Source: a virus. Taken from it: a stretch of 31,535 bases of DNA. The notes under the pieces are model-generated. The model had not been told where the DNA came from. It ran no database searches and was given only the letters and a program-made list of their open reading frames with translations. The translations under genes and the position numbers were made by a program. Shown in pieces: positions 1 through 31,535 of this stretch (position 1 is the first letter of the stretch; each line of letters opens with the position of its first letter). The stretch lies in the IMG/VR virus record IMGVR_UViG_3300037584_002990, positions 1-31,535 of that record. One strand, written 5' to 3'.

Positions 1-3000
1 ACAGTTCCATCACCACTTGATAAAGTAGGTACTCCTAATGCACAAACTGATGATGAATCTCCAGCATCTACAGACTCGTATTGTGTTGCACCACTACAAT
101 CAGTATAACTAAAGTTACCAACTGAAACTGAACCTCCCTCTAAATCCCATTCATTACAACCACCTGGCGTAGGTGTTGGTGTTGGAGTAGGAGTAGGAGT
201 AGGAGTGGGGTTAGTAGCTATACAAGTATCACAATCTGGGTAAACATTAGTATAGTCATTAGCGTTTACAGTTGAACTAGTTTCATCTATCTCGTAACAT
301 CTACCGTCAGCCATTAACACTATATCACCCGGTGCGTTTCCACTAGCATCTGCTACTCTAACATTAATATAGTTAGCACTACCTTGTCCTGGACACATTG
401 TAACAGTATAATAATTAAATGCAAAGGTTGGTGTCGGTGTTGGCGGAGGTGTAGGCGTTGGGCCAACCGGAGTAACTGTTGGTGTCGGTGTTACAGTCGG
501 ACTACAACTTACTCCTGTGTCACTTGCACTACCACCACTTATTGTAGGTGTTGTTCCGGTTAATACACACACGTCAACATCAAAATCTCCTGGCAATATT
601 CCTGTTTGTGTGTTTCCATTACAGTCTGTATATGAGTAATTACAACCACCGCTTCCACTTGGACAAGTCAATGTCCACTCAGTACAAGAAGGTGTTGGCG
701 TAGGTGTTGGAGTCGCAGTTGGAACAGGCGTAACAGGCGTTGCAGTTGGAACAGGCGTAGGCGTTACAGTTGGTGTAGGTGTAGGTGTAGCAGATGCACA
801 TAAAGAACAATCTGTATAAGTTTCTACTATATCTACTGTACTAGTTGAACCTGTTACAGAAGGACTTTCATAACAAACACCACTATGCTTTACAACAGCA
901 GCAAATATACCTCCTGATGGCAATCTAAATACTTGAGTGCTTCCACCTCCACACTGAGTATATTCTCTATAGTCATAAACAATAGGTGTCGGAGTCACAG
1001 TTGGTGTCGGAGTCACAGTTGGTGTCGGAGTCACAGTCGGAGTCGGAGTCACAGTTGGTGTCGGAGTCACAGTTGGAACTGGAGTTGGGGTCGGTGTTGG
1101 TGTGCCAGTAGATCTATAATCCCATATTAAATATAAAATACTTCCGTTTGATGGCATTATAAAATCTGCCGAATAAATTGAAGGAGCACCAACAGTAGAT
1201 ATCGGTGTTGCGTCAATTGCTAAAGAAAGTAAACTTGTAATATCTGTTACGTTATTTTGATAGAATGTGTTTGTTCTTAAATATTTTAATCTGTCTACTG
1301 AGGGGTCAAATACAAAATCATCAAAATTAATTTTGTTTGAATAAATAGTCACAGTAGATCCGTCAACTGGGAAAACTCCGCTACCTTGCGAGCCTGAAAA
1401 CAACTGGTATTGTGATACAGCAAAGGAAGAAGATGTGCTTGTAAATTCTACTAAATTGGATTCTGTAGGTGAAACAGTCACACCGTCAGTCCAACCAAAT
1501 TCATTATGTATAAATTGTCCAGCTTCAACTGGATCAGTTACACAAATGTTATATATGTTTAAAGCGTTTGCTCTTGGACAACTTACATTTATTTGAATTG
1601 TATCATTTTGGTTTGAATTTGAGCTAACAACTATTGTCACCTCTTGTACATTTGGAACATTTTTATTAAATGTAAAACTACCCGAAGCCTTGACAGAGCC
1701 TGAAGTATATGTTACTCCTTTATAAATAGCGTTTATTGTATAAGCAGTTTGAGATTGAGACCCCTCTGTAATTAGCTGAACTCCCGACTCGTCAGTCATT
1801 AAAACATTTGTTTCGCTTTCAATATCTTGTTCTCCTTCTTTTGGAATTACAAAACTTACTGTTACAAGCCCTGTCTGCTGAGTAACATCTACACAATAAA
1901 CAAAGTCCTGATTAGCTATTACTGTTATATCTTTAGTAACACCACACGCTAAACAAACTGGTATTTCAGGTTTTAATATTGTATTTGAAGTTAATACATA
2001 CTCGTCCATATAAGGGTCATAACCCCCTAATTTTTGAGTGGTAAATGCTTCAGTAAATAAATCTCTAAACCAGCTTCTCATACCAGTTTCAGATATAACT
2101 ATAAGTCTTTCATCTGAGGCTGACCCACCTAGTAGTTGAAGTACCGCTCCTCTTTTTACATCAGTAAAATATTTGTTTTCTCCCCAAGCCACGAAGCTTT
2201 CTGGGTTGTTACTAATACCATAGTTCTCAATACGTGCTATTTGATTTCCTAAAATTTCTGGGACTGAAGCAACTAAACCTCCTCCAGTTGAGTCAGATAT
2301 AATATTTTTGGAAGCCAGAACGTATGATATTTTATCTTCTTGTAAAACAAGTATATCGGTTCTTCTGCCAAATAATATTTCAATATCTCCATAACTTTCT
2401 TCTAATGGTTTAAAGTTAGCTAAACCTAAATTAAATTCATTTAATTTATTGACATTAGTTTCATCATTATATACACCGCTATAGGTTAAATCAGCAAACC
2501 TATTAGCTTCTTTATATTCTACGTTAGAAGTTGTAAATACTCTGTTACCTAAATTAAAAGATTTACCATTTAAAGAGTCTCTTACTTTATAACTTTCTAC
2601 ACCATTTCCAAACGCAAAACAATTAAAAAATTTAGTATCAACCACACCAGCAACTCCTGCAGTTATATCTTGATTAGTTATGTTCCCGCTATGATTACCA
2701 TTTGAATCAATAGAAAATGATTCATCGTTTTCAAACCAAACATCAGGCAGTGCTTCAGCTGGCTCTGTTTCAAATACAACAACTGAATCTCTTCTAAAAA
2801 CAGTAAATGTAATTTCAACACGAGATCTATATCTGCTTGATGAACCAGCATTATTACAGGCTTCAGTACCGCTCACTAATAAAGAATATGTGTTATCCGT
2901 CCCATTTTCATAAAACCTATAATAGTTATTTAATAGTAAATCACTTGAGGTCGATGGGCTGTTTGATTGACCACCAAAAATGGTAAACATTGTAGAGTTA

Positions 3001-5657
3001 CCTAAATTATCTCCTGCGTATCCATTAGATTGTGGAGTGCCTGTGGGTGAACCGGGAACTAAACCTGATATAACAACATTACCCACCGGGTCTGAAGGGT
3101 CTCCCGTCAAAGTAATCGCATTATTTTCTATAGCAAAAGTTGCATTACTATTAATGAACCATTGATACATATCTGTGTAAGTATCTTGAGCAATAAATTG
3201 TTCCTCTATCACACTCTCTCTTTCTTCACAGCCTCCGCCTCCACCCGCTCTTCTTTGTTTTATTTTCATTACTATTCTACTTCCGCTAGGCACATTGTAA
3301 TTTGTGCTTGTACCTCCAGATGTAGTATAAAAAGGATATGCTGCTACTGGATTTTCTTGAGGATTATCTGCTGTTTGCTGAAAAGTTCCTAAAGAGATAA
3401 TATCATCAGCGCTTTCCTCAGTTGAAAAATCTTGAGAGTTCATCTTCATATATGTTCCTCCTGGAACAGGATTTCCACTTGCAGGCGTAATAAAGTCTGC
3501 AACCTGTGTTTGTTTTTCCAAAACAGTTGCGAATACACAAGATTCAACTGGACCGTTTGCATCTCTTTTAACAATTAATCTATCTCCTTCTTCAACTTTA
3601 GCAATATTATCTCCTTCTAACAATAAAAATGTATTATTAGAATTTGGGTCATTTATAAATATGCTTGAGTATATAGTCTCATAAGTTGTTCTATCTGGTT
3701 TTAAACAAAACTTATATCTTGTTGCCCAAGAAGGAGCTCTCTGAGTGGTTGGTATAGTGGCAATAATTTTATTTAAAGTCTTAGAGTTTCTACATGGAAT
3801 GTTTACAGTATTATTATTACTAACTAAAGCTGTTGAAGCCCTGTTATATTCATCCATGTATATTATTCCTAATTCATAACCTCTATTACTATGTAAGCTT
3901 TGTAGGTCTGCCGTAGCTTGTAATGTAGCAGTAATAGATGTAAAGGTATTGTATGATATAATTAAATTAGTTGTTCCTGGTGATGTTTGAATGTATTGAG
4001 CTACAGGAAATTTTAGCTCTATTTGAGTTCCGTTTAATGTTGAAGCAATTGGTTCACCTTTATTAGTAGATGGAGGAACTGAGGCTGTGCTTGATGTTAA
4101 TCCTGTTTGATTTAAAGAGTAACTAAATCCTCCACCTGTTAAAGTTGGTGATAAAGAAAAATTAAACGCATCCGTTAAGGTTGTACCTAAGCCGTTTTGA
4201 GCATCTGAAACAGTTTGAATAGCAGAACTTATTAAACCAAATTTAGATTTAAAATCTGAGCTATTATATAAATCTGATACTGAAGAATAATTATCAACTA
4301 AAACATATTGGAAATTAATTAAGGTTTCACCTTGTTGTTGAGTTGGAGTATCTGCTCCATTGTAAGATAAATGTTGATAGGTAAAAGAAAAATTTAAAGC
4401 TGCCCCTTGAACTAATTTGCTTTCAAATCCACCTAAATCAAAAGTAAAACCAGCGGTGGTTACGTTTAAAGTATTACCAAAAGCTGTATAATTAAATGCT
4501 AATGAATTAGAAGAATTTAAATCTACTCCACTAGCATCTTCAGTATCTAAGGCGACTGTGTATTGTAAATTTAGTGGTAGATTATTTTTATCAATCAGAT
4601 TATATCCTTCTGTGTAATTACCATAAATTAATCTATTTCCCATTAAAGTTTGAGCTTTAGCTAATCTTGGAACATTATCATATAATCTTAATATTTCTGA
4701 CTCTGGTAATACAGTAAAAATTTTACTATTAGTAAAAGTGTATGTTGCATTAGTATTGTTAGGACCTAATGGAGATTTAGGAATTCTTTCTATTATTTTA
4801 ATAGTAGGATCATTGGCTTCCTTGAATAAAATATCAATACCCACTACCAGGGAGCTACCTGTATTATAAGTTATTTGAACTCCAGATTTAGAGTTTACCA
4901 TTCCCTCATTTAAAAAACTATTTGGAGAAAATTCAAAAAAACTTGGTTGAAAAGCTGGTTGACTAAATTGAGAAACAGCGGAATACTCGTTATTAGCGTA
5001 TTTATATCTGTAGGCAAAACAAATAAAATTATCTTCTAAGAAAGAATCTTCTAGTGTGGTTGTTAATAAATTTAAAGTTGGTGCAGCAATAGGCGGTTGT
5101 TTAATTACTAATATTTCATCACTAGTAAACTGGTCTATATTATTAAACGGATCCTGGTAATTAAAATCAATATTAATTACCCTCGGAGCATTTAAATTAT
5201 CAGTAAAAAAAATTAAATTATCAATTTTATTTACACCAGTTATTAAAAAGTTTGGATTAAAATTTAATGTTGTGTTCGTATTGTTACCATCATTAACACT
5301 TACAATATGATATATAATAGCACCTGTAATAACATTATATGAAACAATTAAATCTAGTTTTCCAGTTGCTCCAACAGTAAATGCAGGATCGTGAACAAAC
5401 CAATAAATGGTTTCATTTGCTCCATCTTCAAATGCTCCTATACATCTTGCTTTAGAACTAAGTTTTGTTCCATCTGTATATTGAAGAGAAGTTACTTGAA
5501 CATTTCCTTTGGCATTTTCAACAGCACCTATTTCTGATTCTTCAGTAGAACCTAGTCTGACATTCAAAGCATCTATATACTCTCCGTTAGGAACAAGCCT
5601 TTCATCAAGGCTTTTGTTCATTCGGCCTGCTACAAAATTTCTTTGAATGTTTGCCAT
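1..5657 (-). CDS. Giant tail-hub/stabilisation protein (P22 gp10-like N-terminal region) with modular C-terminus, 3' end outside window
   Basis: The frame starting with ATG at 5657 stays open to base 1, giving at least 1,885 codons; the stop lies beyond the window. The N-terminus (NFVAGRMNKSLDERLVPNGE, residues 7-26, followed by a DALNVRLGSTE stretch) matches the stabilisation protein of crAss-like phages, thought to be equivalent to the P22 gp10 tail hub. Around residues 1190-1222 the motifs GMRSWFRDLF and KLGGYDPYMDEYVL are also typical. After about residue 1230 the protein continues as beta-rich, Ser/Thr-rich sequence, then as Cys-rich modules separated by Thr-Pro linkers (linkers near residues 1518-1560, 1623-1660, 1720-1743 and 1812-1832). 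It begins 1 nt after the preceding connector gene, as expected for the head-tail module. Role inferred: distal short-tail hub, with the C-terminal extension as a surface-exposed, possibly receptor-contacting arm. Family assignment of the N-terminal part is fairly firm; the function of the extension is unknown. Confidence 0.85.
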   Translation of the reverse strand, partial: MANIQRNFVAGRMNKSLDERLVPNGEYIDALNVRLGSTEESEIGAVENAKGNVQVTSLQYTDGTKLSSKARCIGAFEDGANETIYWFVHDPAFTVGATGKLDLIVSYNVITGAIIYHIVSVNDGNNTNTTLNFNPNFLITGVNKIDNLIFFTDNLNAPRVINIDFNYQDPFNNIDQFTSDEILVIKQPPIAAPTLNLLTTTLEDSFLEDNFICFAYRYKYANNEYSAVSQFSQPAFQPSFFEFSPNSFLNEGMVNSKSGVQITYNTGSSLVVGIDILFKEANDPTIKIIERIPKSPLGPNNTNATYTFTNSKIFTVLPESEILRLYDNVPRLAKAQTLMGNRLIYGNYTEGYNLIDKNNLPLNLQYTVALDTEDASGVDLNSSNSLAFNYTAFGNTLNVTTAGFTFDLGGFESKLVQGAALNFSFTYQHLSYNGADTPTQQQGETLINFQYVLVDNYSSVSDLYNSSDFKSKFGLISSAIQTVSDAQNGLGTTLTDAFNFSLSPTLTGGGFSYSLNQTGLTSSTASVPPSTNKGEPIASTLNGTQIELKFPVAQYIQTSPGTTNLIISYNTFTSITATLQATADLQSLHSNRGYELGIIYMDEYNRASTALVSNNNTVNIPCRNSKTLNKIIATIPTTQRAPSWATRYKFCLKPDRTTYETIYSSIFINDPNSNNTFLLLEGDNIAKVEEGDRLIVKRDANGPVESCVFATVLEKQTQVADFITPASGNPVPGGTYMKMNSQDFSTEESADDIISLGTFQQTADNPQENPVAAYPFYTTSGGTSTNYNVPSGSRIVMKIKQRRAGGGGGCEERESVIEEQFIAQDTYTDMYQWFINSNATFAIENNAITLTGDPSDPVGNVVISGLVPGSPTGTPQSNGYAGDNLGNSTMFTIFGGQSNSPSTSSDLLLNNYYRFYENGTDNTYSLLVSGTEACNNAGSSSRYRSRVEITFTVFRRDSVVVFETEPAEALPDVWFENDESFSIDSNGNHSGNITNQDITAGVAGVVDTKFFNCFAFGNGVESYKVRDSLNGKSFNLGNRVFTTSNVEYKEANRFADLTYSGVYNDETNVNKLNEFNLGLANFKPLEESYGDIEILFGRRTDILVLQEDKISYVLASKNIISDSTGGGLVASVPEILGNQIARIENYGISNNPESFVAWGENKYFTDVKRGAVLQLLGGSASDERLIVISETGMRSWFRDLFTEAFTTQKLGGYDPYMDEYVLTSNTILKPEIPVCLACGVTKDITVIANQDFVYCVDVTQQTGLVTVSFVIPKEGEQDIESETNVLMTDESGVQLITEGSQSQTAYTINAIYKGVTYTSGSVKASGSFTFNKNVPNVQEVTIVVSSNSNQNDTIQINVSCPRANALNIYNICVTDPVEAGQFIHNEFGWTDGVTVSPTESNLVEFTSTSSSFAVSQYQLFSGSQGSGVFPVDGSTVTIYSNKINFDDFVFDPSVDRLKYLRTNTFYQNNVTDITSLLSLAIDATPISTVGAPSIYSADFIMPSNGSILYLIWDYRSTGTPTPTPTPVPTVTPTPTVTPTPTVTPTPTVTPTPTVTPTPIVYDYREYTQCGGGSTQVFRLPSGGIFAAVVKHSGVCYESPSVTGSTSTVDIVETYTDCSLCASATPTPTPTVTPTPVPTATPVTPVPTATPTPTPTPSCTEWTLTCPSGSGGCNYSYTDCNGNTQTGILPGDFDVDVCVLTGTTPTISGGSASDTGVSCSPTVTPTPTVTPVGPTPTPPPTPTPTFAFNYYTVTMCPGQGSANYINVRVADASGNAPGDIVLMADGRCYEIDETSSTVNANDYTNVYPDCDTCIATNPTPTPTPTPTPTPTPGGCNEWDLEGGSVSVGNFSYTDCSGATQYESVDAGDSSSVCALGVPTLSSGDGT
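169..210. repeat. Hexanucleotide repeat (seven units), Thr-Pro linker coding
   Basis: Seven imperfect hexamers (gtaggt, gttggt, gttgga, gtagga three times, gtgggg) encode an uninterrupted Thr-Pro stretch of the tail protein on the minus strand. As with the 18-bp repeat, it is in frame and prone to slippage. Confidence 0.8.
988..1077. repeat. Tandem 18-bp repeat, five units, inside the giant tail gene
   Basis: Five consecutive 18-base units with consensus gtcggagtcacagttggt (units start at 988, 1006, 1024, 1042 and 1060). The third and fifth differ slightly at their ends. On the minus strand they encode the Val-Thr-Pro-Thr-Pro-Thr linker of the tail protein. The unit is a multiple of three, so gain or loss of units would change linker length without breaking the frame. 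Confidence 0.9.
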
Positions 5658-25934: not shown

Positions 25935-26090
25935 TTATTTATTATAAGGAAATATGCGATTAAGCGAATCACGTCTTTGATCGCACCCGCAGTCCTTGTT
26001 AAACTTATCTGCTACTATGTCTACTGCTTTTTTGATTCCAGTAAACTTAGTAAATTTTTCTATGTCGTCTCCTAGTCCTCTTGATTTCAT
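25935..26090 (-). CDS. Small Cys/Gly-containing protein, 51 aa
   Basis: ATG at 26090 overlaps the stop of the upstream gene (ATGA), which favours this start over in-frame ATGs at 26099 and 26105. The product begins MKSRGLGDDIEKFTKFTGIK and ends DCGCDQRRDSLNRIFPYNK. The pair of Cys in DCGCD and the FTGIKK motif look like a small conserved phage protein type I recall from marine phages, function unknown. Two Cys alone would need a partner to bind zinc. Confidence 0.65.
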   Translation of the reverse strand: MKSRGLGDDIEKFTKFTGIKKAVDIVADKFNKDCGCDQRRDSLNRIFPYNK

Positions 26091-26248
26091 TTTATACATA
26101 TACATTCTTCTTTTTCACAATTTTTCATCTTAAATGATATTGCAAAGATAATCTTATTCCAATTACATTTTATATTATGTGTCAACTTTCCCCACCATCT
26201 TGCTATTGCATGAGACGCTTTTATGAGCCAAGCTCCTAATTTTTTCAT
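26087..26248 (-). CDS. Small amphipathic protein with C-terminal Cys cluster, 53 aa
   Basis: ATG at 26248, TGA at 26087-26089. The sequence opens MKKLGAWLIKASHAIARWWG, has a short hydrophobic stretch NKIIFAISF (residues 31-39), and ends KNCEKEECICIK with three Cys in nine residues. It starts 6 nt after the stop of the preceding gene and overlaps the next by four bases. The Trp-rich amphipathic N-terminus suggests membrane or nucleic-acid contact. No family recognised. Confidence 0.55.
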   Translation of the reverse strand: MKKLGAWLIKASHAIARWWGKLTHNIKCNWNKIIFAISFKMKNCEKEECICIK

Positions 26249-26254
26249 ATCGTT

Positions 26255-26443
26255 TTATTTTTTACACCCAAAGTTGTTTGCATAATTTGCCATAGCCACA
26301 ACTCTTTTAGTGTATTTATTTTTACTTTTCATAACCGCAGAAGCGGCAGCGCAAGTAGACTTTCCAGGCATATTCTTTTTTACCCAGTTTGTAAACTTGC
26401 CCTGATTTTTCTCCTTAATCATCGGAAATGGTTTCTTTGCCAT
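26255..26443 (-). CDS. Small basic protein, 62 aa, conserved phage type
   Basis: MAKKPFPMIKEKNQGKFTNW starts a Lys-rich protein with a NMPGKSTCAAASAVMKSKNK core and ANYANNFGCKK end. The pattern of KFT, a Ser/Cys/Ala run, KNKY, then NYANNFG looks like a family of small phage and large-virus proteins that I cannot name. Two Cys are spaced widely. It begins in the stop codon of the previous gene (TAATG). Confidence 0.7.
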   Translation of the reverse strand: MAKKPFPMIKEKNQGKFTNWVKKNMPGKSTCAAASAVMKSKNKYTKRVVAMANYANNFGCKK

Positions 26444-26670
26444 TACTTTTTAATTAATGATGATAAGTGTGCGTGAACGCTTCCTTTTTCTCCGTGAGAC
26501 TCGTAAGCCATGGAATGATCGCCACCATATTTGTGACCGTACATTTTTTTAGACATAGCTTCGCTTTCATCTCTTCTTGCTTTATAAGACTGAGATTTTT
26601 TGCCGTGCTTTGCTCCTAATGAGTCATCCAACTTATCGTTGTAACCTTGTGAGTATTTTACTGTAGGCAT
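26443..26670 (-). CDS. Small charged His-rich protein, 75 aa
   Basis: MPTVKYSQGYNDKLDDSLGA begins a strongly charged protein with a KARRDESEAMSKKMYGHKYG centre and an ESHGEKGSVHAHLSSLIKK end. Histidines are frequent (GDHSM, ESHGE, VHAH), so metal binding is conceivable. It has its own TATCTTTG box about 31 nt upstream, splitting the microgene train in two. Unknown function. Confidence 0.65.
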   Translation of the reverse strand: MPTVKYSQGYNDKLDDSLGAKHGKKSQSYKARRDESEAMSKKMYGHKYGGDHSMAYESHGEKGSVHAHLSSLIKK

Positions 26671-26701
26671 GATTTATAAATTTTAATTAAACAATTTTAC
26701 A

Positions 26702-26709
26702 CAAAGATA
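26702..26709 (-). promoter_or_regulatory. TATCTTTG -7-type box inside the microgene train
   Basis: The minus strand reads TATCTTTG directly after the stop of the 96-aa gene and about 31 nt before the ATG at 26670, within the only sizeable gap (39 nt) of this gene train. Confidence 0.55.
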
Positions 26710-27000
26710 CTAATATTTTCCTTGTCTATTTTTTGGTGAAGATTTTGTAGAACCACCTGATCCAGACCATAATGTTCTGCATGCCCAATATCTTGCAGTA
26801 AGCTTTGATTTTGCTTGAGAACATTTATGTCTAGCTCTAAAACTTTTTCTTGCAGCAGCAGAATAATTATGACCATAACCAGTAGCTCCAAAGTGTATAA
26901 GTTTTTCCTGGCCATTAGCACACGCCTTTACCATTTTCTTTTTACCTGCTCTGTCTGATTTAGTCGGCTTGTTACAAGCCATTTTACTTTTATCTGCCAT
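26710..27000 (-). CDS. Small basic Cys-containing protein with conserved KSFRARHKC...YWAC motif
   Basis: A 96-aa protein, strongly basic. Residues 30-78 contain GQEKLIHFGATGYGHNYSAA, then ARKSFRARHKCSQAKSKLTA and RYWACRTLW. The motif (I/L)xFG, then RKSFRARHxC, then K(L/T)xARYWxC is one I recall from virion or core-associated proteins of marine phages. The Cys/His residues (C9, C27, H57-x-C59, C73) could bind zinc. Its ATG lies in the stop of the gene before it (TAATG). The basic character plus possible zinc site suggests DNA or RNA contact, perhaps packaged in the head; this is inference. Confidence 0.72.
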   Translation of the reverse strand: MADKSKMACNKPTKSDRAGKKKMVKACANGQEKLIHFGATGYGHNYSAAARKSFRARHKCSQAKSKLTARYWACRTLWSGSGGSTKSSPKNRQGKY

Positions 27001-27242
27001 TATGCGTTTCTTACTTTTGCTGCTTTTGTATTTGATACTACTGTCTTTCCTTTAGCTCCTTCTCTTTTTTTCTTACGAGCTGTTTGAGCTAATTGTCTTT
27101 TAGAAAGTCTTAATGCTTTTTTTCTCGGAAGACATCGGTCTGGATTTTTTTTATCTTTACTAGTCCCGCACTTGCCTTTGATTTTACCATCCGTACCTAT
27201 GCGAACCCAGTCTTGTTTTACCCAGTTTTTTAGAGCTCCCAT
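27000..27242 (-). CDS. Small Lys/Arg-rich protein, conserved phage family
   Basis: An 80-aa protein with about a third Lys/Arg. The first half has NWVKQDWVRIGTDGKIKGKC followed by GTSKDKKNPDRCLPRKKALR; the second half has LAQTARKKKREGAKGKTVVS with an NTKAAKV end. The WVRIGTDGKIKGKCG, NPDRCLPRKKA and KGK-x-V-x-NTKxAKV blocks form a family I recall from marine phages and some large algal viruses; the function is unknown. Two Cys (C25 and C37) are conserved in position. It shares one base with each neighbour (TAATG at both ends). Confidence 0.75.
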   Translation of the reverse strand: MGALKNWVKQDWVRIGTDGKIKGKCGTSKDKKNPDRCLPRKKALRLSKRQLAQTARKKKREGAKGKTVVSNTKAAKVRNA

Positions 27243-27361
27243 TACTTTTTCATTTTAGACATTGACTTTAACATTCTGTCAATCTTTGCAGCTTGACCTT
27301 TGTGCATAGCCGATGCTTTTTTTAGCTCTCTGGATATTTGTTGTAGTTTTTTCTTTTCCAT
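27242..27361 (-). CDS. 39-aa helical microprotein
   Basis: ATG at 27361, TAA at 27242-27244. The sequence starts MEKKKLQQISRELKKASAMH and continues as one charged amphipathic helix (AAKIDRMLKSMSKMKK). Both ends overlap neighbours by one base (TGATG before, TAATG after). These junctions, not length, make it credible. Function unknown. Confidence 0.65.
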   Translation of the reverse strand: MEKKKLQQISRELKKASAMHKGQAAKIDRMLKSMSKMKK

Positions 27362-27495
27362 CACTTTTTCATTTTAGCACCAGCTATCTTATCTGCATAA
27401 GTTATACCTGGATTGTTATCCATGCCAGCTTTTACGCTTAGCATACCAAAATTTGTTCTTTTACCCTTACGGGCTTTTTTATTCATTTTACTCAT
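27361..27495 (-). CDS. 44-aa basic microprotein
   Basis: ATG at 27495, TGA at 27361-27363. The product reads MSKMNKKARKGKRTNFGMLS and then VKAGMDNNPGITYADKIAGA before a KMKK end. The NFGMLSVKAGxDNNP and ADKIAGA stretch looks conserved in related phages. It overlaps the upstream gene by four bases (ATGA) and the downstream one by one. Basic, Gly-rich, no known role. Confidence 0.65.
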   Translation of the reverse strand: MSKMNKKARKGKRTNFGMLSVKAGMDNNPGITYADKIAGAKMKK

Positions 27496-27647
27496 TTCTT
27501 ACTTTTTTTTGCGTAGTTAGGATCTTTACAATATTTACTCGCTGCCATATTTGCATAAGCAGACGGATAAGTATCAAAAGTTCTTTTAGCCCAAGCAATA
27601 CCTGCTGGACATATTTTGTTTTTTCTTCCTGTTTTTTTCTTTGCCAT
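27492..27647 (-). CDS. 51-aa basic microprotein with two Cys
   Basis: ATG at 27647, TGA at 27492-27494. The sequence opens MAKKKTGRKNKICPAGIAWA, continues KRTFDTYPSAYANMAASKYC and ends DPNYAKKSKK. The ICPAGIAWAKRTF, AYANMAAxKYCKDP pattern appears conserved in small phage proteins, function unknown. Two Cys, 13 and 40, might pair or hold a metal. One-base overlap upstream and four-base overlap downstream. Confidence 0.68.
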   Translation of the reverse strand: MAKKKTGRKNKICPAGIAWAKRTFDTYPSAYANMAASKYCKDPNYAKKSKK

Positions 27648-27958
27648 TACTTCTTATGTTTATCTATAATAGTTTGTATGCTGTCTAATGAAACATTTAT
27701 CTTCATTGTTAATCCAGCTTCAAATCTTGCTATCGGTTTGTTCTCTAAATATACTACGATTGTGGGAACGCTTTTGATAGACCTTTTGAGATTATCACTT
27801 TGTTCTTCTACATACGCATATTGAACTTTAGTATTTTTTAATCTTTCAAGTCTGTTGTAAGCATTGCTTTCATTCCATTTGTAATTGAAATGAACTGTAG
27901 TAATCTCTTGACCGTAACTAAAAACACTGAACAGTAATGCTAAAATTAATAATCTCAT
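27647..27958 (-). CDS. Secreted thioredoxin-fold protein lacking the CXXC motif
   Basis: A 103-aa protein. Residues 1-17 (MRLLILALLFSVFSYGQ) form a signal peptide with cleavage likely before EITT, typical of Bacteroidota. The mature part, TVHFNYKWNESNAYNRLERL (21-40), has the position of the thioredoxin active-site loop but no Cys. A KVQYAYVEEQSDNL strand-helix and KSVPTIVVYLENKPIARFEA (62-81) with the expected cis-Pro P65 then complete the thioredoxin pattern. So it should be periplasmic, with a thioredoxin fold but no redox centre: a binding or chaperone role rather than disulfide exchange. It overlaps both neighbours by one base. The fold is assigned by eye; a Cys-free cargo-binding protein is the best reading. 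Confidence 0.65.
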   Translation of the reverse strand: MRLLILALLFSVFSYGQEITTVHFNYKWNESNAYNRLERLKNTKVQYAYVEEQSDNLKRSIKSVPTIVVYLENKPIARFEAGLTMKINVSLDSIQTIIDKHKK

Positions 27959-28251
27959 TAGTCCTTGGTTATAATTTCAAATAATTTCTGGTCAATATCT
28001 TCTAGCTTCTCACCATTCTCCTGCACCTTCTCTTGTGTATTGATTATGGTTTCTCTAATAAGCTGATCTTTCAGGTCATACTCAGTTCGAGACACTTCTG
28101 GTTCAGGTAGTTTTTTAGCCAGCTCGATATCTTCTTGAAGCGAGTACCACATACCCACAACTGTAACCACAACTGCACCTAAAGTAATTAGGTTCTCAAC
28201 ACTAATGTTGAATTTTTTCTTTTTTAATTTTTCAATATCTAGCTCGCTCAT
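27958..28251 (-). CDS. Small membrane protein with C-terminal coiled coil
   Basis: A 97-aa protein. N-terminal basic stretch KLKKKKF, one membrane segment about residues 18-37 (VENLITLGAVVVTVVGMWYS), then charged helices (residues 40-95, with RTEYDLKDQLIRETIINTQE and LEDIDQKLFEII). This N-in, single-TM, periplasmic coiled-coil layout is like an inner-membrane spanin or a virion-injection helper. No lipobox partner lies adjacent; a small lipoprotein is encoded at 29502-29711 and might be the outer partner, but this is speculative. It overlaps the thioredoxin-like gene by one base (TAATG). Confidence 0.6.
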   Translation of the reverse strand: MSELDIEKLKKKKFNISVENLITLGAVVVTVVGMWYSLQEDIELAKKLPEPEVSRTEYDLKDQLIRETIINTQEKVQENGEKLEDIDQKLFEIITKD

Positions 28252-28253
28252 TT

Positions 28254-28400
28254 TTAGTAACCCATTTTTTTCTCCATCCCATAACCAGGGTTGTAGCTGA
28301 TTTTACCTTTTTTCATTTTGGCAAACGAGTCTGCTTGAGCTTTTCCTACTGCGTTGTATGGAAACACTCTTTTTATGTTTTTACTTTTTACTGTTGGCAT
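28254..28400 (-). CDS. 48-aa basic microprotein
   Basis: ATG at 28400, TAA at 28254-28256. It reads MPTVKSKNIKRVFPYNAVGK, then AQADSFAKMKKGKISYNPGY and GMEKKMGY. Basic with no Cys and no known domain. The start lies 20 nt inside the gene before, and its stop is 2 nt before the next start. Confidence 0.6.
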   Translation of the reverse strand: MPTVKSKNIKRVFPYNAVGKAQADSFAKMKKGKISYNPGYGMEKKMGY

Positions 28401-28500
28401 AATTACTTTTTTTATATATTAACATATTAGGGAAATCTTTAGTGCTTCCCTTTGGGCACTTGTAATTGTATTTGTTTTTATCTAATGAGCTTTTATACAT
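28381..28500 (-). CDS. 39-aa basic microprotein
   Basis: ATG at 28500 sits in the stop of the 68-aa gene (TAATG); TAA at 28381-28383. It reads MYKSSLDKNKYNYKCPKGST, then KDFPNMLIYKKSNYANSKK. It overlaps the following gene by 20 nt. Its short length makes it uncertain, but the stop-start overlap matches the pattern of the whole train. Confidence 0.5.
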   Translation of the reverse strand: MYKSSLDKNKYNYKCPKGSTKDFPNMLIYKKSNYANSKK

Positions 28501-28706
28501 TACGCTCCTCTTTTTTTCTTCTTTGGCTTTACTATGACACTGTCAGACATTGTTCTTTTGTGTGGAGGAACCATAGTTCCTGTATCTTTTCTGTATGGAA
28601 ATCCATCAGCGTTTACTCCATAGATACTGTCTAGCTTTTTGATCATTGCGTTACGAGCTGGTATGCTATCCATGGCTTTTTTTAAATGTCCTTTTTTGTG
28701 TGGCAT
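28500..28706 (-). CDS. Small basic protein, 68 aa, first of the microgene train
   Basis: MPHKKGHLKKAMDSIPARNA is followed by KKLDSIYGVNADGFPYRKDT, then TMVPPHKRTMSDSVIVKPKK and a KKRGA end. It is strongly basic and His/Lys-rich at the start with no recognised domain. A TATCTTTG box 16 nt upstream suggests it opens the transcript of the microgene train. It is divergent to the plus-strand regulator-like gene. Confidence 0.65.
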   Translation of the reverse strand: MPHKKGHLKKAMDSIPARNAMIKKLDSIYGVNADGFPYRKDTGTMVPPHKRTMSDSVIVKPKKKKRGA

Positions 28707-28744: not shown

Positions 28745-29188
28745 ATGAAATTAAGAGTAAACGACTGCCTAAAATACTGGCGAGTGATAAGATATTTTGT
28801 AAAGCGTAAACATGGATTGACTACATGTGATCTTGAAATGCTTTTGTTTTTATACAGCGAAGATATATTTTCTAAAAAAAAATTTGTAAGCTATGCAAGT
28901 TTACTTAGGTGGGATAGAAGAAGATTCCAAAGACTTGTTGACGAAGGGTGGATAGAGCTGTTTAGAGAGAGAAACAAACAAATAAAAAGTCTTTACTCAA
29001 TATCTTTCAAAACAAAAAGACTTTGTGATTCTATTTATAAAAAATTATCTGGAGAAGAAATACCTACTTCACTTGGCTCAAACCCGATGTTTGCTAAAAA
29101 CGTTAGCTATACAGACAAGGTTTACAAAAATATGATAATAGAGATGAATGATTTTATAAAACAACAACGACGTCTTTCTCCTGAATAA
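28745..29188 (+). CDS. Winged-helix (MarR-like) DNA-binding protein, probable phage regulator
   Basis: A 147-aa protein and the only plus-strand gene. Residues 10-70 (KYWRVIRYFVKRKHGLTTCD, then LEMLLFLYSEDIFSKKKFVS, then SLLRWDRRRFQRLVDEGWIE) read as helix-turn-helix plus wing, like MarR-type proteins. Residues 72-100 form a wing and linker (FRERNKQIKSLYSISFKTKR). The C-terminal helices include YTDKVYKNMIIEMNDFIKQQ. It is divergent from the microgene train and convergent with groES, overlapping that gene's 3' end by 35 nt. A regulator is the natural reading, since it sits between two divergent or convergent operons; its target is unknown. Confidence 0.7.
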   Translation: MKLRVNDCLKYWRVIRYFVKRKHGLTTCDLEMLLFLYSEDIFSKKKFVSYASLLRWDRRRFQRLVDEGWIELFRERNKQIKSLYSISFKTKRLCDSIYKKLSGEEIPTSLGSNPMFAKNVSYTDKVYKNMIIEMNDFIKQQRRLSPE

Positions 29189-29411
29189 TAGTAAAAGGCT
29201 CGTCATTAATTATCATTGAGTAACCAGAACGTTTATCATAAAAGATAAAGTCTCCCTCATCTAAATCAGATACCTCTGTACCTGATTTTATTATCACTCC
29301 TTTTTTGTATCTTAGTTGGTTGGCATCTTCTGAACTTAGAAGAAGACCTGAAGAAGTTTTTATTTCCTCTTCGATAGTTTTAATTATTATGTTCTTCCCT
29401 ATTGGTTTCAT
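29154..29411 (-). CDS. groES: GroES-like cochaperonin
   Basis: An 85-aa protein, a little shorter than the usual 95-97 aa. It starts MKPIGKNIIIKTIEEEIKTS (as in KP-x-x-x-x-I-x-I-K of GroES), has the mobile-loop region KTSSGLLLSSED (18-29) with LLL in place of the IVL that contacts GroEL, then GVIIKSG, LDEGDFIFYDKRSG (50-63, the VGD-x-V-x-F motif), and ends EPFTIIQEKDVVVVL. A roof loop like that of E. coli GroES is shortened or absent. The start overlaps the stop of the 38-aa gene by four bases, and the gene closes the operon that begins with groEL. The 3' end overlaps the plus-strand regulator-like gene by 35 nt. The call is secure. Confidence 0.85.
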   Translation of the reverse strand: MKPIGKNIIIKTIEEEIKTSSGLLLSSEDANQLRYKKGVIIKSGTEVSDLDEGDFIFYDKRSGYSMIINDEPFTIIQEKDVVVVL

Positions 29412-29524
29412 TTAAATAACTTTTTAAAATACTTTTCAAGTGTAAGTGTTTTTTTTCTTTTGTGTCCTTTTGCTTGACGATAAGCATTTACAAAATATCT
29501 TTTAATTAATTTTTCTATCCTCAT
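29408..29524 (-). CDS. 38-aa basic microprotein in the chaperonin operon
   Basis: ATG at 29524, TGA at 29408-29410. It reads MRIEKLIKRYFVNAYRQAKG, then HKRKKTLTLEKYFKKLFK. It is extremely basic and helical, without Cys. The start is 23 nt inside the preceding lipoprotein gene and the stop overlaps the groES start as ATGA, which supports it being translated. Function unknown. Confidence 0.6.
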   Translation of the reverse strand: MRIEKLIKRYFVNAYRQAKGHKRKKTLTLEKYFKKLFK

Positions 29525-29711
29525 AATACGAGCAATATATTTCTGTAATGTATGTAACCTCACAGATTCCATCAACGCAAACTATATCTTCTTTTTGATA
29601 TTGGTCTACTTTGTATGTTATACATCTATCGTCTTCTTTCTCACATGCAGCTGCTGTAAAAAAAAGCAGTATTAAAAAAAACAATATAACGTATTCAAAT
29701 ATTTTTTTCAT
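29502..29711 (-). CDS. Small lipoprotein with Cys-rich mature part
   Basis: A 69-aa protein. Residues 2-22 form a hydrophobic signal (KKIFEYVILFFLILLFFTAA) followed by a lipobox Cys at C23. The mature 46 aa is acidic with four more Cys (C30, C45, C50, C60), so two disulfides are possible. Its ATG overlaps the stop of the 244-aa gene by four bases. Possible roles: outer-membrane lipoprotein that blocks superinfection, or an outer-membrane spanin. It has no known family; the lipobox and signal are clear, the role is guesswork. Confidence 0.7.
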   Translation of the reverse strand: MKKIFEYVILFFLILLFFTAAACEKEDDRCITYKVDQYQKEDIVCVDGICEVTYITEIYCSYYEDRKIN

Positions 29712-30442
29712 TTTTTATTATAATATTTTTTAAGTTTATCCATATATGAACCTGTAAATTTATCTATTATCCAAACCCAACCTCCATAAGAGGAATTTTG
29801 TACTGCATTTAGTTTGGGTAATTTTTTTTCTGCACAATATGCTACAGCTAACACATCACCTTTTTTACACATATACTTTAGAGGTTTGTTTAAATCGTAA
29901 GAAAAGTTTATGTTGATGTTTGTTAAAGTTTCCTCTATTAAAGGTAGTACACCTGGCATAATAGTAAGAGGTAAACCTGGGTTATGATACATTGGCTGCA
30001 TGAAAATTAATTTAATTAAACCTGATCCTTTAGAACTTCTTATGTTTGTTGAAATTGACAACTGTATATTCCCTGTCTTTCCACCATTAAAGCCCATCAT
30101 TTGAGTTACTAAATTATGCTTTGTGACTTTTATCAAGTGTTCATTAGATGAATCAAACTTCCAATCATCCCCACCTTTAGATTCAAAGTACCAATCACAT
30201 GGAGAGGTAATAACATAACTATATTTAAAAACATCCACAAAAGAGGGGCAGTATTTAAGATTACTTACGTGTTCGTTTTTTCCTTTATACATTTGCGTTC
30301 TGACTTTCCTCCACCATGCAGGTTGATTTTCTAACGTAGGAGTAATTATATCTTTAATAAAATTATCAATTTGGTCAGGTATAATAGTTGGTGGTACTAC
30401 TAGTTCTATGCTTTTTTCTTTTTGTTTTTTAAAAAGTTTCAT
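29708..30442 (-). CDS. Unknown protein, marine-phage type, in the chaperonin operon
   Basis: A 244-aa protein. It has a basic N-terminus (MKLFKKQKEKSIELVVPPTI), then ENQPAWWRKVRTQMYKGKN, LKYCPSFVDVFKYSYVITSP and CDWYFESKGGDDWKFDS (residues 80-98), and a beta-rich second half (GNIQLSISTNIRSSKGSGLI, MQPMYHNPGLPLTIMPGV). The pattern CPS, an aromatic-rich strand, then a C/W-D-W pair resembles a family of unnamed proteins of marine phages, with no established function. It starts in the stop of groEL (ATGA overlap) and is followed by the lipoprotein (ATGA overlap), so it is translated with the chaperonin. It may be a folding client or adaptor; nothing in the sequence shows this. Confidence 0.55.
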   Translation of the reverse strand: MKLFKKQKEKSIELVVPPTIIPDQIDNFIKDIITPTLENQPAWWRKVRTQMYKGKNEHVSNLKYCPSFVDVFKYSYVITSPCDWYFESKGGDDWKFDSSNEHLIKVTKHNLVTQMMGFNGGKTGNIQLSISTNIRSSKGSGLIKLIFMQPMYHNPGLPLTIMPGVLPLIEETLTNININFSYDLNKPLKYMCKKGDVLAVAYCAEKKLPKLNAVQNSSYGGWVWIIDKFTGSYMDKLKKYYNKK

Positions 30443-31535
30443 TTACTCTCGTATGTTCTTGCCATTGTTACAATCGCATTAGTAGATAATATGGTCACTG
30501 CCACACTCACTGCATTTTGAAGTGCCTGCTTTGTTACCTTCATGGGGTCTATAATACCCATCTCAATCAAGTCACCTTCTTTCCCTGTCTTCACATCGAG
30601 GCCTATGTTTTTCTCATTGTACACTCTGGTATTTTTAATGCCTGCGTTTTCTTGAATTTGGTTGAGCGGTTCTTGAAGTGCTTCCCCCAAAATCGCCTTG
30701 GCGATTTTTTTGGTAGAATTTTTCCTCATTAACTTCAATCCTTCTTGGTACAATGCCAGTCCTGCCCCAGGGAGTATGCCTTCCTCGAGGGCACTACGGA
30801 CTGCGCACACTGCGTCATCAACTCTATCAAACAGTTCTTTTTGTTCTAGGTCGGTATTCCCGCCTACATAGATGACTCCGACTCCTCCGGTCAGGGATGC
30901 TATACGAGAGAGGATAAACTCCTTGTCCACTTTCTTCACTGTTATGGAATGAGCGTCCCAGAGTTGTGCTACCCTCTCCTCGATTAGCTTCTCGTTCACA
31001 TGAGAATCGTCTTTTAATATTATGCTAGAGTCCCTGCCTACGATTATTTTCTTTGCACGACCCAGGTCTTCAAAGTTCATAATGCTCATATCATCTCCAG
31101 TCTTTTCTGAAAAATAAGTAGCCCCTACTGACAGAGCTATGTCTTGCATCAGTTCATGTTGCTTATAGCCAAAGGAGGGTGGAATTATGGCACAAAGCTT
31201 CAAGCTGTTCTTCATCACATTCGCCGCTAGGGTGTTTATGACTTGTTGTGAACAAGGCGCTACTATTAATAATTTTTTTCCTTCATTGATAATTGGTTTC
31301 AATATATTCTCAATGACAAGTATGTTGTTGATCTCTGCATCAGAGACAAGAATATGCACATCCTCCATGATACACTCATCTTTCTTTTGGTTGTTTACAA
31401 ACAAAGGGGATGAGTACCCCCTGTCTATTTTTAAACCATTGGTAGTCTCAAAGCTGGTCTCTGACCCCTGGGATTTCTCCACCGTTACAATTCCGTTATC
31501 ACCCACCTGGCTATATGTGTCGGCTATTATTTTCC
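30439..31535 (-). CDS. groEL: GroEL-like chaperonin (Hsp60), 5' end outside window
   Basis: Partial; the frame enters at 31533 and ends at 30439, 365 codons plus stop. It aligns by eye with GroEL from about residue 155 to 525. Apical domain: DRGYSSPLFVNNQ (GroEL DRGYLSPYFI), NNILVIENILKPIINEGKKL, MQDIALSVGATYFSEKTG, then ERVAQLW. Intermediate and equatorial parts: SRIASLTGGVGVIYVGG, RVDDAVCAVRSALEEGILPG (D equivalent to catalytic D398), LNQIQENAG and EMGIIDPMKVTKQALQNAVS. It ends at VAVTILSTNAIVTMARTYES plus Lys without the GGM-repeat tail. The GGG loop near 414-416 reads GAG. Several sampled lines have 45-50% GC against 13-25% in sampled lines of the next gene. The next start overlaps its stop (ATGA). 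The family is certain; activity is not shown. Confidence 0.93.
   Translation of the reverse strand, partial: KIIADTYSQVGDNGIVTVEKSQGSETSFETTNGLKIDRGYSSPLFVNNQKKDECIMEDVHILVSDAEINNILVIENILKPIINEGKKLLIVAPCSQQVINTLAANVMKNSLKLCAIIPPSFGYKQHELMQDIALSVGATYFSEKTGDDMSIMNFEDLGRAKKIIVGRDSSIILKDDSHVNEKLIEERVAQLWDAHSITVKKVDKEFILSRIASLTGGVGVIYVGGNTDLEQKELFDRVDDAVCAVRSALEEGILPGAGLALYQEGLKLMRKNSTKKIAKAILGEALQEPLNQIQENAGIKNTRVYNEKNIGLDVKTGKEGDLIEMGIIDPMKVTKQALQNAVSVAVTILSTNAIVTMARTYESK

Follow-up and report, generated by a model that had tools for sequence, protein, structure and literature searches.

One question that is raised by the end of the IMG/VR virus record IMGVR_UViG_3300037584_002990 is what three genes are doing between a groEL and a groES, the genes for the barrel and the lid of a chaperonin. 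We analyzed this record over its whole length of 31,535 bases, hereafter the window, where terminase, portal and structural proteins all have PHROG matches to head families. Among annotated genomes, the podophage MW202828 (60.8 kb; terminase 77.6% and GroEL 61.7% identical to those of the window) is the nearest, followed by a Flavobacterium Elemovirus (terminase 46.5%); the relatives of the window virus are podophages of Flavobacteriia. The answer that we prefer, and consider probable, is that a Bacteroidota podophage owns a group I chaperonin pair, and that the junction between its two genes is a variable cargo slot in which the intervening genes are passengers. The chaperonin pair itself is of a known kind and the variable slot between its genes is the new part; in the open-licence literature that we searched, no description was found of gene exchange or of a variable slot between groEL and groES in phages.

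The operon is found on the minus strand between positions 31533 and 29154 and all of its genes overlap, as an earlier note on this DNA had described. It starts with the C-terminal 364 amino acids (aa) of groEL (30439..31533), whose 5' end lies beyond the contig, followed by the first slot gene, which encodes a 244-aa protein of unknown function that we call X (29708..30442). The second encodes a 69-aa lipoprotein-like protein with a lipobox-like start (29502..29711) and the third, an open frame, a 38-aa basic protein (29408..29524). An 85-aa groES closes the operon (29154..29411). The groEL/X, X/lipoprotein and 38-aa/groES junctions are ATGA overlaps of 4 nucleotides (nt), and the lipoprotein and 38-aa genes overlap by 23 nt.

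By comparing this junction among relatives it can be seen that the two outer genes are constant and their interval is not. In all 119 loci with a match to both genes, a count that includes the copy of the window itself, groEL and groES lie on one strand and in the same order, and the arrangement is therefore more than chance. The gap set was built from 57 groEL loci, 80 groES loci and two annotated phages, and gave 118 measurable loci, 97 of them distinct and 21 duplicates; the window is not among the 97, and 21 loci that match only one of the two genes stand outside the gap counts. Over the 97 distinct loci, which we refer to by L numbers, the gap ranges from -17 to 2439 nt, with 22 loci at 10 nt or less and 73 at 80 nt or more, and the interval shows 45 arrangements. 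From 74 slots, the window's included, 142 open reading frames (ORFs) were collected, which form 49 clusters, or about 44 after gene-caller artefacts are subtracted; among the slot ORFs of at least 40 aa, 124 of 129 are on the groEL strand.

The recognised cargo includes 2OG-Fe(II) oxygenase, sulfotransferase, adenylylsulphate kinase, cytidylyltransferase-like, PAPS-reductase-like, FkbM methyltransferase, DNA methyltransferase, Mom-like, RyR-domain and DUF1599 proteins and homing endonucleases of the HNH and NUMOD1 types, and many proteins are unrecognised. Two slots of more than 2.2 kb (L083:869-3014 and L078:761-2563) hold 2OG-Fe(II) oxygenase, sulfotransferase, adenylylsulphate kinase and nucleotidyltransferase-like genes, a set which may form a sulfate-transfer module. 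At L041:2849-3295 and L011:2894-3541 a Mom-like DNA modification protein and a DNA methyltransferase are found as cargo, possibly serving anti-restriction. Nine proteins were tried in PADLOC and the only matches were for the PAPS-reductase-like (SspD, 1e-8) and FkbM (mad2, 4e-4) cargo of other loci.

The slot differs even between close relatives. L009 and L017 have different contents between flanks that are 98.3% (groEL end) and 94.4% (groES) identical in DNA; L092 and L095 are closed and filled with one gene, respectively, which is set at an ATGA overlap, with flanks 96.3 and 96.0% identical; and L087 and L083 have gaps of 88 and 2241 nt between flanks 93.8 and 98.4% identical. Among 55 pairs whose groEL-end DNA is at least 90% identical, 21 differ in contents, some slightly; 28 pairs were first scored as differing, and seven of these were artefacts of L024, where an open HNH frame was missed by the gene caller. 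At control junctions, the gap reached at least 80 nt in 0 of 78 cases between terL and portal, 0 of 79 between a 92-aa gene and terL, 0 of 41 between a 390-aa gene and the capsid gene, and 2 of 34 between portal and the 390-aa gene. One may ask whether the variability is simply an artefact of metagenome assembly or of a simple gene caller. All loci except MW202828 and Elemovirus are uncultivated contigs, at least five of the 49 ORF clusters were made by the caller, and L137 looks frame-shifted. Yet matching contents recur on separate contigs, other junctions are constant in contigs from the same collection, and the slots are densely coding and tightly coupled; we regard such an origin as very improbable.

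If the junction is a slot, the next question is whether the window's three genes are passengers or partners of the chaperonin. All three X proteins match phrog_7084, a family of unknown function (E 1.3e-9 for the window, 1.4e-11 at best), in a partial match to profile positions 24-176 of 240; this family is absent from P-SSM2 and HTVC008M. Homologues of X in viral contigs were found only in the slots of L004 (50%) and L017 (48%), and between the window and L004 the X proteins are 50% identical while GroEL is 92% and GroES 95% identical. X gave no Pfam or NCBIfam match, and no relative in annotated phages or in a pattern-based scan of bacterial genomes that reaches close relatives only. Two candidate identities of X were rejected, an SH3 domain, whose best PDB sequence match (E 0.041) was judged chance, and DUF6065, as PF19541 has no match in the window up to E 10 and none of the three X proteins has a Pfam match. 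Its structure model, made from 3 sequences, is of low confidence, with a predicted local distance difference test score (pLDDT) of 34.5. X and the lipoprotein were also discarded as known defence genes, neither having a PADLOC match. The lipoprotein-like protein has a hydrophobic start followed by AAAC, with the Cys in all eight members of its cluster, the window's included, and for the 38-aa protein the slot of L065 provides one homologue (66% identity over 38 aa).

Two recurrent cargo families give a wider view. A 60-aa membrane-like family has a match in 17 of 42 whole records, in the slot in 10 and elsewhere in seven, each of these seven copies being on the strand opposite to groES and over 12 kb away from it. 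An 88-aa family is matched in 11 of the 42, in the slot in seven and elsewhere in four; three of the four are on the opposite strand, and the fourth, in record G038, shares the strand of groES and is located at the other end of the record. Another hypothesis is that the slot genes work with the chaperonin as functional partners, such as adaptors, or depend on it as clients, and stay beside it so that they are expressed jointly. The tight translational coupling, which is seen in the window and at 179 of the 211 junctions in relatives, can be read in this way, as can the recurrence of some families (in 16, 15, 9 and 8 slot loci) and the 90-aa gene that lies between the two chaperonin genes, in reversed order, in Cellulophaga phage phi38:1. 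However, in 22 of the 97 loci the gap is too short to hold a gene, the contents are chemically unrelated, and the two recurrent families occur elsewhere in sister genomes, with 10 of 11 such copies opposite the groES strand. We find a partnership improbable. The coupled genes pointed out by the earlier note look like contents of a variable slot and are unlikely to be parts of the chamber; by analogy with the two recurrent families, the window's three slot genes are most likely passengers.

How could such passengers be expressed? In the relatives, the motif TAnnTTTG, which we take to be the -7 box of Bacteroidota promoters, occurs in 60 of the 75 distinct stretches of 100 nt that precede groEL, where 5.7 would be expected, and 55 of its 62 sites lie 25-34 nt before the start. 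No excess of the motif was found in the slots (21 against 30.5 expected) or before groES (1 of 68, with 3.7 expected). Of 211 junctions in relatives, 127 are overlaps, with ATGA in 60 cases, and at a further 52 the genes are at most 10 nt apart. From the motif before groEL, its lack of excess in the slots and the tight junctions, the slot genes therefore appear to rely on the groEL promoter and on translational coupling. In the preferred reading, a promoter of the host housekeeping type just upstream of groEL would drive a single transcript, and genes entering between the groEL stop and the groES start would be read via the start-stop overlap, with no need for a promoter of their own. Passengers would be swapped among related phages through recombination in the conserved flanks. 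Short repeats of the ATGACGAA / TTCGTCAT or TGTCGATT type, direct and inverted, sit between the upstream gene and groEL in relatives (L005:7269-7450; L023:7325-7342; L073:4064-4157) and are possible operator or origin iterons.

Several observations weigh against the preferred reading. After correction, 34 of the 55 close pairs have the same slot contents, and therefore turnover is not fast everywhere. The control set was fetched by terminase, from other contigs than the groEL set, and is less divergent than that set because it holds the nearest 80 of at least 599 relatives. The stretch beyond the 147-aa gene that follows groES shows 45 arrangements in 52 loci, which rules out the slot as the sole variable place, and the stretch after it shows 26 in 46. 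The TAnnTTTG motif is absent from 15 of the 75 upstream stretches, those of the close relatives L067, L068 and L008 included, and a TTG at the expected -33 distance is found in just 17 of the 60 motif-bearing stretches; the window's own groEL promoter is off the contig, and the motif data come from relatives. As for passenger status, the eight members of the lipoprotein family lie only in slots within the loci examined, and the whole-genome searches covered the 60-aa and 88-aa families.

Another option regards the force that opens the slot. Free-standing homing endonuclease genes occur between conserved phage genes, and here, too, HNH and NUMOD1-type genes are found at one conserved junction (the label GIY-YIG for the NUMOD1-type protein is our own reading). 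In such an explanation homing endonucleases made and maintain the slot by cutting the closed junctions of co-infecting relatives, and repair copies the endonuclease together with passengers. Endonuclease genes are present in 10 of the 97 loci, of the HNH type in L023-L028, L030, L031 and L047 and of the NUMOD1 type in L040 and L047; thus two unrelated types share one junction, L047 holding both in tandem. Related closed alleles exist in L019 and L039. The inserts of L040 (9632-10569) and L047 (9097-10554) adjoin a groES without its usual ATG, where an in-frame ATG 3-4 codons upstream is available (giving an 89-aa frame in L047). On the other hand, 87 of the 97 loci show no endonuclease, and most slots carry other cargo, a difference from known sites of this kind. 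The endonuclease genes were recognised in the slots of relatives and none in the window's. The HNH proteins fall under Pfam cut-offs, though they are strong in PHROG (8.5e-24), the closed alleles are just 77-82% identical to filled ones at the groEL end (measured for L019 pairs), and recombination in conserved flanks would also suffice. We consider homing as the maker of the slot a tentative explanation, on the unlikely side, and it may be the motor of the preferred reading, a variable slot with passengers, rather than a true alternative to it.

The GroEL fragment of the window matches Pfam Cpn60_TCP1 (E 6.8e-29, 101.3 bits against a cut-off of 34.3) and PHROG groEL (E 2.5e-80). Three full-length relatives are above the cut-off of the NCBIfam GroEL subfamily NF009487 (463-499 bits against 352) and do not reach the bacterial equivalog TIGR02348 (434-470 bits, cut-off 582.1), and this GroEL is therefore a divergent one, distinct from the bacterial equivalog. 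The missing 5' end can be filled in from relatives, in which most intact proteins have about 530-545 aa. The ATP-binding and hydrolysis residues D398 and D495 are present in the window fragment, and T30, G32, D52, D87, T89, T90, D398 and D495 are all kept in 81 of 81 full-length relatives; the earlier note had asked whether the ATP-binding N-terminus would be there once the 5' end was recovered, and the site is intact. Its remarks that the barrel lacks a GGM tail and that the GGG loop reads GAG also agree with our data: none of the 81 relatives has such a tail, and the change (G415A) is shared, as Ala, by 26 of them.

The apical groove, whose listed positions (E. coli numbering) we take to be substrate and GroES binding sites, is partly kept and partly changed in these 81 proteins. 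Y199 is kept in 73, S201 in 80, F204 in 81 and L237 in 79, and L234 is replaced by Glu in 78, Y203 by Leu in 65, V263 by Ala in 69 and V264 by Ala in 78. The near-invariant Glu at position 234 suggests that the barrel is adapted to its own phage lid. Positions R452, E461, S463 and V464, presumably the ring-ring contacts of E. coli GroEL, vary widely.

The lid is short throughout. The window GroES matches Pfam Cpn10 (E 3.1e-12, 46.8 bits, cut-off 21.1) and is below the cut-off in all 15 NCBIfam GroES models listed, and the length of GroES is exactly 85 aa in 92 of the 97 distinct loci. The earlier note had pointed to a GLLL mobile loop as an oddity. The sequence stands, SGLLLS being found in the window and as the consensus of 43 aligned relatives, but it is an ordinary-looking hydrophobic tripeptide; the true peculiarity of this lid, as its alignment indicates, is the absent roof hairpin. 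In a profile alignment with solved Cpn10 sequences about nine residues are fewer at one place, which we take to be that of the roof hairpin of Cpn10, and the predicted model (pLDDT 91.3, 43 sequences) shows a Cpn10 fold with a plain turn there. As far as sequences tell, the short lid and the absent GGM tail characterise the whole lineage. A fold search with the model gave Cpn10 chains as the closest (Z 10.0-11.6), then T4 gp31 (Z 9.2 and 9.7). The latter is described as a lid without roof loops, and its cage with GroEL is regarded as a good fit for the T4 capsid protein of 56 kDa (PMC6318259). Both lids thus lack the roof loops and have a similar fold, as far as the predicted model goes, but T4 uses the host barrel whereas in this lineage a phage barrel is encoded beside the lid, and gp31 is not among the 19 PDB sequences matched by the lid profile up to E 10. 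The simplest reading is that the roof was lost convergently. The junction could also be a homing-driven exchange site, where endonucleases enter the seam of the two coupled genes again and again and repair moves passengers from phage to phage, with a private barrel-lid pair (a roofless lid, and Glu for Leu234 in 78 of 81) in parallel; we think this doubtful, and if it is true the chaperonin operon would be the docking bay of a gene-swapping system.

The earlier note had also held that both genes in one phage are unusual, which is not borne out, since MW202828, Elemovirus, Immutovirus, phi38:1 and Panino carry both. A search with the GroEL of L005 matched 247 of 50,697 phage records with an E value of at most 1e-5. 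GroEL together with GroES was reported in Maribacter phage Panino (PMC11590407) and GroEL in 36 genomes of marine Bacteroidetes phage group 2 (PMC5332604), and in the available portions of these two papers intervening genes are unmentioned. Elemovirus (NC_062741) and MW202828 belong to the same terminase lineage as the window and have groEL then groES on one strand and a short GroES (83 and 85 aa, respectively), but there the two genes are directly adjacent, with gaps of -1 and 4 nt, and GroEL is 36 and 62% identical to the window's. Phage phi38:1 (KC821614) is an isolate that has both genes with one gene between, yet in the order groES, 90-aa gene, groEL, and its GroEL is 35.6% identical to that of L005. 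The giant phages EL, OBP and AR9 also encode GroEL homologues, and their rings are described as co-chaperonin-independent (PMC7185714, PMC9598537); in contrast, a lid is encoded too in this lineage, and the GroEL of EL is 28.7% identical to that of L005.

What would the pair fold? The phage-owned chamber proposed by the earlier note stands as a barrel with its own lid, with the ATP site in 81 of 81 relatives, a model of the Cpn10 fold at pLDDT 91 and phage flanks, but not with very large tail proteins as clients. A tail protein of at least 1885 aa should be too large for a GroEL cage. Barrel and lid would fold cage-sized phage proteins, and a plausible better candidate is the capsid-type protein of the lineage, with 52.3 kDa, for which a role of the pair like that of the GroEL-gp31 cage is plausible. 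So far, most work on phage chaperonins has concerned either the rings of giant phages, which have no lid, or single lids that act on the barrel of the host. In this lineage many natural pairs of barrel and lid are available for the study of lid-barrel specificity and of the purpose of a roofless lid. The slot pinpoints a junction at which the accessory and metabolic genes of abundant aquatic phages differ, and since closed and filled alleles occur there in near-identical sequence, the way in which phages exchange genes, which we infer to be recombination, is open to direct testing.

The virus that carries these barrel and lid genes infects aquatic bacteria. A phage contig of the same group, L147, with GroEL 91% identical, was binned with an Aureispira metagenome-assembled genome (MAG), which is a weak hint of the host, or binning contamination. 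As to a host chromosomal groEL, which the earlier note named as a refuting match, the pattern-based scan of bacterial genomes, with its reach of close relatives only, gave a phage-like contig and one 37% homologue in an alphaproteobacterial MAG.

The stable outer boundary of the locus is a convergent 147-aa gene on the plus strand (28745..29188), which runs into groES with its 3' end. Members of its family occur in 95 of the 97 loci, always on the strand opposite groEL and groES, and in 91 of the 95 no ORF of at least 40 aa intervenes before groES. Searches of Pfam, NCBIfam and PADLOC with this gene gave no match, and the MW202828 gene at its position carries the annotation 'repressor protein'. 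Between it and the tail genes lies a run of very small, mostly basic proteins on the minus strand (25935-28706), whose order and content vary strongly among relatives, with 89 ORF families in one part. At the other end of the window (3-5657, minus strand) is the very large structural protein, of at least 1885 aa, which has TPTPT-type repeat runs near its end in the window.

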